This document shows, piece by piece, positions 18,596-64,000 of a stretch of 64,000 nucleotides of DNA. Each line of letters starts with the position of its first letter. The stretch's first letter is position 1. Source of the DNA: an uncultured Clostridia bacterium. Lineage in GTDB: Bacteria > Bacillota > Clostridia > Oscillospirales > Ruminococcaceae. The stretch is from contig CANRNN010000001.1 in NCBI GenBank assembly GCA_947632025.1, positions 248,001 to 312,000 on the forward strand, read 5' to 3'. The position numbers and the translations under genes were made by a program. Below the pieces are notes generated by a model that had not been told where the DNA came from, did no database searches, and worked only from the letters and a program-made list of their open reading frames with translations.

Positions 18596-18624
18596 TTGAC
18601 AAAGGGCGAAAAATGTGGTATAAT
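18596..18624 (+). promoter_or_regulatory. Promoter of rplJ-rplL
   Basis: TTGACA (18596-18601) and TATAAT (18619-18624) are 17 bases apart, with an extended -10 element TGTGG immediately before the -10. This is a strong consensus promoter, as expected for ribosomal protein genes. Confidence 0.9.
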
Positions 18625-61777: not shown

Positions 61778-62658
61778 CGTTTCCCCTCCGCGTATTTCAG
61801 CAGTCCCACCGAGAGCGTCTGCAAAGTCGGGCGTTCAGTCACCGCGCCCAAAGCTTTCAGTTTATCGGAATTTTCCGCTTTCGCAAGTCCCTCAAACGTA
61901 GATGAATTCGCGCTGTACGACAACAGCAGTTCCTTTGCTGCGGGAAAGTTTTCGGGGTCGCCGCGGGCTATTATGTATTTTTCTTTAAGGTCGTCCACAA
62001 ATCCTGTTTCGAGAATTTTTCCGTTGTCCATAAAAACGGCGTAATCGGTGGCGTTTTCCATATCGGCAATATTGTGCGTCGAAAAGATTATTGATTTTTC
62101 TCCGTCGCCGCGGTCGAGATATTCGCGGAATTTATCGCACAGCCTGTCGCGCATTAACGGGTCGAGGGAGCTTCCCGGCTCGTCGAGAATAAGAACGTCT
62201 GTTTCCCGCGCGAAAACCGCCGCGAGAGCCGTTCTCATACGGTTTCCGTCGGAGAGTTTGTACATCGGGAGCTGTTTTTTTGCCGGATGCGAATCAACGC
62301 CCAGTTCATCGCAAATCCGCACGAATTTTTCGCGGTCAAAATTCTTGTACGCTATCTCAAACGAGGACACGATATTTTTCGGCTTCCAGTTTGTCGGAAA
62401 AAATCCCGACGCGGCACAATATCCCACCCGCTCGCGAATTTCGGGAGAATCGGGGTCGTCGCTTTCGCCGAAATAATTTATCTTCCCCGCAGACGCGTGG
62501 ATAACTCCGCACATAAGGTCGATAAGCGTTGTTTTGCCCGCGCCGTTCGCGCCGATAAGAGCAGTGGAAAATCCCTTCGGTATGCCGAAATTAAGCTCAC
62601 CGAGCGTGAATTTCCCGTATATCTTTTTAAGTCCCGAAACAGAAATGATATCTTCCAT
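61774..62658 (-). CDS. ABC transporter ATP-binding protein
   Basis: The 294-residue protein has Walker A GANGAGKTT (about 36-44), Walker B VLILDEPGSSLD and the H-loop FSTHNI. The ABC signature is unusual: YKLSDGNRMR in place of LSGGQ, and the Q-loop region reads CAASGFFP. Such degenerate signatures are common among ATPases of YtrB type. It starts 8 bases after the GntR regulator gene and overlaps the membrane gene, so all four genes form one operon. Confidence 0.9.
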   Translation of the reverse strand: MEDIISVSGLKKIYGKFTLGELNFGIPKGFSTALIGANGAGKTTLIDLMCGVIHASAGKINYFGESDDPDSPEIRERVGYCAASGFFPTNWKPKNIVSSFEIAYKNFDREKFVRICDELGVDSHPAKKQLPMYKLSDGNRMRTALAAVFARETDVLILDEPGSSLDPLMRDRLCDKFREYLDRGDGEKSIIFSTHNIADMENATDYAVFMDNGKILETGFVDDLKEKYIIARGDPENFPAAKELLLSYSANSSTFEGLAKAENSDKLKALGAVTERPTLQTLSVGLLKYAEGKR

Positions 62659-62666
62659 AATTCCTC

Positions 62667-63032
62667 CTAAACCTCATAAAGCACATCTATCATTTTTACA
62701 AGCTCCTCACGGGAGATTCCGCAAAGTCTTGCCGCCTCCATGGCGTTCTGCAAATGCTGTTCGAGCAGGCGCAGATGCTGCTCTCTTACCATTTCCGTAT
62801 CCTGCGGATTTACAACATAGCCCTTTCCCTGCACCGCCGAGATAAGTCCCTCCTCGGTCATAAGTTCGTATGCCTTCATAGTAGTTATAACGCTTATTTT
62901 CAAGTCCCTAGCAAGCCCGCGTATTGACGGCAGAAAGTCCCCCTCGGATATTTCGCCGCTCATTATCTTTTCCTTAAACTGTGCCGCTATTTGTTTATAG
63001 ATCGGCACATCGCTGTTCTGCACGATTTTCAT
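62667..63032 (-). CDS. GntR family regulator, YtrA subfamily
   Basis: The 121-residue protein has the GntR winged helix at its N-terminus (PIYKQIAAQFKEKIMSGEISEGDFLPSIRGLARDLKISVITTMKAYELMTEEGLI) and only a short C-terminal helix pair, the YtrA type. YtrA-type regulators control adjacent ABC transporters and respond to cell-wall antibiotics in some species. The palindrome at 63068-63081 covers its own -10 box, so it should repress its own operon. Confidence 0.93.
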   Translation of the reverse strand: MKIVQNSDVPIYKQIAAQFKEKIMSGEISEGDFLPSIRGLARDLKISVITTMKAYELMTEEGLISAVQGKGYVVNPQDTEMVREQHLRLLEQHLQNAMEAARLCGISREELVKMIDVLYEV

Positions 63033-63067
63033 TACAGCACCTCCGCAGCTGTTTATATGTTATATAT

Positions 63068-63098
63068 ACAGTATATACTGTTTATCATCTTTTGTCAA
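63068..63098 (-). promoter_or_regulatory. YtrA-operon promoter with overlapping operator palindrome
   Basis: On the minus strand TTGACA (63098-63093) and TATACT (63075-63070) are 17 bases apart. The perfect 14-base palindrome ACAGTATATACTGT (63068-63081) includes the -10, so a bound GntR dimer would block RNA polymerase. Further ATATAC half-words flank it. Confidence 0.85.
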
Positions 63099-63130
63099 GG
63101 GGGTTTTTGATTTTTTTTGAATTAAATTTG

Positions 63131-63159
63131 TTGACAAAGGGCGTTTGGTGTGGTATAAT
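63131..63159 (+). promoter_or_regulatory. Promoter of the TIR-domain gene
   Basis: TTGACA (63131-63136) and TATAAT (63154-63159) are 17 bases apart with TGTGG before the -10. The sequence TTGACAAAGGGCG at the -35 is identical to that of the rplJ promoter, so this gene is probably strongly expressed. Confidence 0.88.
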
Positions 63160-63214
63160 AAGGTATGGTATAGGTTTTTGTACTTTTTATCTTTTTATTA
63201 TTCGGAGGAAAAAT

Positions 63215-64000
63215 ATGGCGGTTTTTAAATGCAAAATGTGCGACGGCACTCTCGATATAACCGAGGGTTCAAATATCTGCACCTGCTCCTACTGCGGTAC
63301 GTCGCAGACGGTGCCGGTGTTTGACGACGACAAAAAATTGGCTCTCTTTACAAAAGCCAACGAGCTTCGCAAAAAATGCGACTACGACAAGGCAGCAAAT
63401 ATGTACGAAAATATCGTCGCGGAATTCCCGCTTGAATCGGAGGCGTACTGGGGACTGTGCCTGTGCAACTACGGCATAGAATATGTGGACGACCCCGTCA
63501 CGCAAAAAAAGATCCCGACCTGCCACCGCACCGTCGTGGAAAGCATTTTCGACGACGAAAACTTTGAACAGGCAAACGAATACGCCACCCCCGAAGCACG
63601 GGATATCTTCTACGCCGAGGCAAAGGAAATAGACAGAATACAGAGGAGTATTCTGGAAATCGTCAAAAACGAAGAGCCTTACGACATTTTCATCTGCTAT
63701 AAGGAAACCGATGAAAACGGCGACCGCACCAAGGATTCCGTTATGGGTCAGGATATCTACAATGCCCTGACGCATGAGGGATATAAGGTATTTTTTTCAA
63801 GGATCTCGCTTGAGGACAAAATCGGGCAACAGTACGAGCCGTACATATTCGCAGCGCTGACTTCGGCGAAGGTCATGCTGGTGCTGGGTACTCACCGCGA
63901 ACATTTCAACGCCGTATGGGTAAAGAACGAATGGAGCAGATTCCTAGATATGATGCGCTCGGACAACTCTAAAACCATTATTCCGTGCTTCGCCGATATA
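63215..64000 (+). CDS. Zinc-ribbon/TIR-domain protein, 3' end outside window
   Basis: The frame is open from the ATG at 63215 (GGAGG upstream) to the window edge, 262 codons. A zinc ribbon opens the protein (C6, C9, C24, C27). A helical, TPR-like middle follows (about 45-140; ALFTKANELRKKCDYDKAANMY). A TIR domain starts near residue 156 (YDIFICYKETDENGD) and continues through GYKVFFSRISLEDKIGQQYEPYIFAAL and VKNEWSRFL. TIR domains in bacteria often cleave NAD or make cyclic ADP-ribose signals in anti-phage defence. Two glutamates (E200, E208) are candidates for the catalytic one. A defence role is inferred. Confidence 0.82.
   Translation, partial: MAVFKCKMCDGTLDITEGSNICTCSYCGTSQTVPVFDDDKKLALFTKANELRKKCDYDKAANMYENIVAEFPLESEAYWGLCLCNYGIEYVDDPVTQKKIPTCHRTVVESIFDDENFEQANEYATPEARDIFYAEAKEIDRIQRSILEIVKNEEPYDIFICYKETDENGDRTKDSVMGQDIYNALTHEGYKVFFSRISLEDKIGQQYEPYIFAALTSAKVMLVLGTHREHFNAVWVKNEWSRFLDMMRSDNSKTIIPCFADI

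Follow-up and report, generated by a model that had tools for sequence, protein, structure and literature searches.

What might a TIR-domain protein that is predicted to sit at the membrane do for a Clostridia cell, and does it serve phage defence? The question is raised by a gene at the edge of the window (the whole 64-kb stretch of DNA analysed, G000:C1:248001-312000), and we approached it by computation, from the architecture, TIR fold and conserved glutamate of the protein to the tail exchange, topology bias, gene cassette and empty site seen among its relatives and congeners. The ORF (63215..64000, + strand) is open and runs off the window edge, as the initial annotation had recognized, with codons 1-262 inside. 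From the sequence past the edge, the full gene was assigned to G000:C1:311215-313218; its 3' end lies at window-equivalent 65218, and its product has 667 aa. The features inside the window are the following.

63108..64000, no strand: in-window portion of a segment of about 2.14 kb (63108 to about 65251) that is missing in congener G009 (locus comparison)
63131..63159, + strand: perfect sigma-A promoter, TTGACA-17-TATAAT, within the segment missing at the empty site
63204..63208, + strand: ribosome-binding site GGAGG (sequence)
63230..63295, + strand: zinc-ribbon-like CxxC (residues 6-9) ... CxxC (residues 24-27) (sequence; conservation in relatives)
63329..63670, + strand: TPR-like helical block, residues 39-152 (Pfam and AF2 model)
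63677..64000, + strand: TIR domain, residues 155-262 inside the window, the domain ending at about residue 298 (Pfam, AF2, fold comparison)
63917..63931, + strand: W235-V-K-N-E239, the canonical NADase glutamate motif (alignment of relatives, AF2 model)

The domain order of the complete protein is a CxxC–CxxC ribbon, TPR-like helices, TIR, a second TPR block and four C-terminal TM helices. Pfam TPR models match the protein, and its AF2 model has helices at residues 39-152 and 314-424; further helices follow the second block, and four hydrophobic helices start at about residue 501, the last of them extending into a long helix. A partner had been suspected in the missing 3' end, which instead encodes this four-TM membrane domain; the next gene downstream is an unrelated lipoprotein-like gene. 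The ribbon-TPR-TIR-TPR module is predicted to be cytosolic and held at the membrane by the four helices. Modelled alone (pLDDT 82), the four-TM tail gave no meaningful match in the PDB, and its resemblance to a SLATT domain was weak (14 bits against a cut-off of 41).

That a ribbon, a helical middle and a TIR domain are combined in one protein, as first proposed, was borne out by Pfam, AF2 and fold comparison. A profile search of the full protein gave TIR_2 a score of 40.5 bits against a cut-off of 28. The AF2 model, made with an alignment of 62 sequences, had a mean pLDDT of 91.9 and a pTM of 0.48. In the VIA comparison with solved TIR domains the nearest was SPARTA TIR-APAZ (Z 18.5, rmsd 1.8, 134 aligned); AbTir with 3AD gave Z 15.7 and SARM1 Z 15.3, and plant TIRs also matched. 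The predicted TIR fold of the window protein is secure. Its catalytic residue had been sought at E200 or E208, neither of which is at the canonical position: among 117 relatives (the family set, drawn from 79 fetched loci plus congeners), E200 is kept in 106 and varies in 11, and E208, itself invariant, lies upstream of betaC. We place the residue at E239, because this glutamate is invariant in 117/117 relatives, sits in the model between betaC (220-225) and betaD (254-259), and belongs to a stretch, W235-VKN-E239, that a profile alignment puts on the W-C-L-M-E motif of the flax L6/L7 TIR. A glutamate between betaC and betaD occupies the position critical to TIR NADase activity (PMC7075850), and the window protein would cleave NAD+ through E239.

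Alternatively, the TIR domain could be catalytically silent and act only in protein-protein assembly. The family TIR profile finds its best PDB sequence match in a TLR TIR (TLR15/TLR2 entries, E 0.002), which is of the assembly class and also keeps W-x-x-x-E. However, the fold is nearest to those of the SPARTA and AbTir NADases and the E239 column of the module alignment is invariant, and we regard a silent TIR as improbable.

We then considered the surroundings of the gene, whose neighbours are a GntR/ABC operon, the lipoprotein-like gene and an MCP gene. In G009 the GntR-ABC operon (proteins 77-89% identical) abuts the downstream lipoprotein-like gene, with no TIR gene between them, and window positions 62600-63107 and 65252-66274 match adjacent bases. 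The promoter and gene thus form a solitary present-or-absent unit of about 2.14 kb, and the YtrA-type ABC operon, which the initial annotation had linked to the TIR gene, is not its partner, since the congener carries the operon without it. From this pair of genomes alone, the segment may represent a gain or a loss; neither target-site duplication nor terminal repeats were seen at its ends. A palindrome, ATATATACAGTATATACTGTTTAT (window 63062-63086), separates the GntR gene from the insert; it is nearly identical in G009 (L130) and is likely to be an operator of the GntR/ABC operon.

The promoter had been described as almost that of rplJ, and 24 of its 29 bases do equal those of the site upstream of rplJ (18596-18624). 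It is not exceptional, however: the window contains seven perfect consensus sites, that of the TIR gene included, so that strong promoters of this kind are usual in this DNA. With one mismatch or less allowed, 10 sigma-A consensus sites were found in the 64 kb against 0.32 expected by chance. A strong promoter argues that the TIR protein would stay inactive until clustered.

Close relatives are common in Clostridia but patchily distributed. Within the genus, 18 of 37 genomes carry one, as do 30 of 297 in an order sample, 29 of 293 in a class sample and 4 of 398 in a phylum sample, counts that take in a few weak or partial matches. Searches of 50,697 phage and 72,556 plasmid records gave no match. 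Across the 117 relatives the alignment covers residues 1 to about 390, at a median identity of 54%, and the remainder does not align. The module has the invariant residues C6, C9, R171, E208, W235, E239 and W240, all present in the window protein, and the ribbon cysteines C6/C9 and C24/C27 are invariant or nearly so. The family, large and patchy in Clostridia, is apparently undescribed; a search of the open-access literature, where absence is no proof, turned up no paper on the ribbon-TPR-TIR-TPR module, on the swapping of its tails or on a cassette of SPFH and TIR genes. One locus (L105:3940-16787) holds an array of three full TIR-family genes and a truncated one (107 aa, ribbon-TPR only), with transposase-like fragments between them.

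Module 1-392 is kept while the tails differ between relatives. Of the 117 members, 8 are of the window type; a Pfam search of 113 tails assigned 39 to DUF6273, 9 to RCC1, 4 to BspA LRR and 2 to MORN, and one each to an M23 peptidase and TM2. A tree of the module implies 15 or more switches of tail class in those members that were classified. DUF6273 has a C-type-lectin-like fold (PMC10743442). A motif scan, not exhaustive, of the genes next to DUF6273 relatives found no DGR reverse transcriptase. The DGR accessory protein Avd belongs to the S23 family. Two related small cassette proteins (L014:7561-7956 and L016:2601-2966) resemble that family (23S rRNA intervening sequence), and PF05635 matches 2 of 132 other neighbours.

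Exactly one TM helix follows the module in 47 relatives, and lysines plus arginines within 15 residues total 307 before it and 87 after it. By the positive-inside rule, applied to helices predicted from hydrophobicity, the module of these relatives would be cytosolic and the tail outside. The tails beyond the single helix often have 190-670 residues, a few being very short. With the tail outside, the LRR and DUF6273 examples would resemble a Toll-like receptor whose parts run in the opposite order. A cytosolic TIR joined by one helix to an ectodomain is predicted in most of the 47 and not in the window protein, which has four TM helices and no ectodomain. The likeness to Toll-like receptors (an LRR or C-type-lectin-like ectodomain, one TM helix, a cytosolic TIR) is thus predicted for relatives only, and even there the chain order is reversed and a ribbon and TPR are added; we make no claim of common descent for the two architectures.

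A gene for an SPFH protein (Band_7_1) was found at 20 of 36 well-flanked loci and one for a multi-TM protein of about 230 aa, labelled four-TM from hydrophobicity alone, at 19; both occur at 18 and neither at 15. The usual order is SPFH, four-TM, TIR on the same strand, and the SPFH proteins often carry zinc ribbons. We found no paper joining SPFH with bacterial TIR receptors, again with the caveat that absence from open-access literature proves nothing. At L069:4548-7235, the SPFH protein (Band_7_1) of the cassette bears double zinc ribbons and is joined in one chain to a Ser/Thr protein kinase. Neither an SPFH nor a four-TM gene stands beside the window TIR gene, and a search of its genome for the four-TM partner, made with a single distant query and hence a weak negative, gave no match. 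The idea that the window four-TM tail is a fused copy of the cassette partner was dropped, the profile match not being significant. A YdjI-like protein with C-terminal zinc ribbons is encoded in the same genome, far from the TIR gene (L096:1381-2715; G000:C1 near 391 kb).

These cassettes raise what we consider the main rival to defence, envelope-stress signalling of a YdjFGHI/Psp-like kind, in which the SPFH and four-TM proteins would monitor the membrane and the TIR module would be a signal maker or scaffold. In B. subtilis, the SPFH protein YdjI and two membrane proteins bring PspA to the membrane (PMC8581546). About half of the well-flanked relatives likewise pair a zinc-ribbon Band_7_1 protein with a membrane partner in operon-like order, and the strong promoter of the TIR gene is in keeping with such a role. 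Yet YdjFGHI has no TIR, no PspA-like gene was seen among the recurrent neighbours of the relatives, and patchy presence, mobility and fast tail exchange would be unusual in a housekeeping stress system. This makes envelope stress a somewhat unlikely reading.

For defence, a link to defence-type genes is supported in part. Some cassettes include defence-type genes, HEPN-type at L108 and L032 and SIR2/AbiH-like at L044; another, L042, has a DUF4760 gene. Of the 132 other neighbours, 4 are phage integrases, one of the commonest kinds. At L044:840-5416 an integrase lies directly upstream of the TIR gene, and the SIR2_2/AbiH-like gene is inside the cassette. An IMG/VR contig (L108/L109, IMGVR_UViG_3300031555_010668) carries a resolvase followed directly by a complete cassette of SPFH, four-TM, HEPN-like and TIR-DUF6273 genes, as well as terminase, portal and a GH25 lysin; it is the one contig linking a cassette to a prophage, and the cassette may sit just beyond the attachment site. 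PADLOC, however, gave few and scattered matches among the 132 other neighbours, and the subfamily of the window gene is solitary.

That four-TM version occurs in eight genomes of the genus and forms a single clade in the family tree (SH-aLRT 99). Its members lie in at least four different surroundings with no conserved partner, so that mainly solitary homologues are the rule in this subfamily and not in the wider family. Amino acid identity between close orthologues is 96-98% in the module and 62-81% in the tail. Between L087 and L088/L089 the TM part has a dS of 1.4-1.6 and flanking genes 0.25-0.43, an excess suggesting that the tail was probably replaced by recombination. Between L088 and L089 the tail evolves faster (dN 0.117 against 0.018) and dS is little raised. 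Possibly, the window gene is a degenerate, solitary remnant of a cassette whose function is lost, in line with the missing adjoining partner and the weak negative for one elsewhere in the genome. Against this, the ORF is intact and its promoter perfect, all eight orthologues keep every key residue, and the module is under purifying selection (dN/dS about 0.02-0.08 among close orthologues); loss of function appears highly improbable.

TIR NADases are already known in defence, and the family differs from the closest known systems. SpbK is a single-protein TIR NADase defence (PMC12847820), and the window protein resembles it in having TIR and a sensing part in one chain, in its mobile element and, putatively, in activation by clustering; it differs in its ribbon-TPR flanks, membrane anchor and exchangeable tails, and in the SPFH/four-TM cassette of its relatives. 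Thoeris (ThsB TIR with ThsA SIR2-SLOG; type III ThcB4), to which the initial annotation had pointed, shares a TIR enzyme and, in one relative's cassette, a SIR2/AbiH-like gene, but the window protein is membrane-anchored and adjoined by no ThsA-type SIR2-SLOG or other Thoeris effector; the NCBIfam equivalog model for ThcB4 reached 22.3 bits against a cut-off of 220. Although SPARTA TIR-APAZ is the nearest solved fold, the window protein has TPR and TM helices in place of APAZ at its C-terminus, and no Argonaute is found among the adjoining genes.

Still less does the evidence favour a TIR effector of a gut commensal aimed at the host and blunting animal TLR signalling. Comparable effectors are known from other bacteria (PMC2944809, PMC4203976); the module, however, is predicted to be cytosolic and membrane-tethered, no N-terminal signal is visible in the window protein sequence, and the relatives have varied tails and a membrane cassette. 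We consider a host-directed role barely credible.

Anti-phage defence best accounts for an enzymatic module that stays conserved while its sensor-like tails evolve fast and are exchanged, and that travels on mobile DNA, occasionally beside HEPN/SIR2 genes; the SPFH and membrane partners suggest an envelope trigger. We propose that the window gene is a solitary, horizontally mobile member of a modular, receptor-like family whose conserved TIR module is coupled to interchangeable sensor tails and is frequently accompanied by an SPFH scaffold and a small four-TM protein. An envelope disturbance or ligand, sensed by the window protein within the membrane itself, would cluster the TIR proteins; the clustered domains would cleave NAD+ via E239, depleting it or producing a signal, and cell arrest would follow as an abortive form of defence. 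That the protein is a mobile membrane TIR NADase sensing envelope attack in anti-phage defence seems to us evenly poised. Weighing on the negative side are the few PADLOC matches, the partnerless subfamily, the single prophage contig beside the blank phage and plasmid searches, and a perfect promoter, unexpected for a freely active NADase. More tentatively, gut Clostridia may possess a counterpart of the Toll-like receptor in which recombining lectin-like, LRR or propeller ectodomains drive a cytosolic, SPFH-organised TIR NADase, with the window gene as a solitary member that senses within the membrane.

To our knowledge, the known bacterial TIR defence proteins detect phage parts within the cell. 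If our reading is true, bacteria would have in this family a means of detecting surface attack via TIR, through membrane-spanning, exchangeable sensor tails. The family would make a bacterial origin of TLR-type layouts directly testable, and its natural tail swaps on one module provide a ready set for finding triggers.
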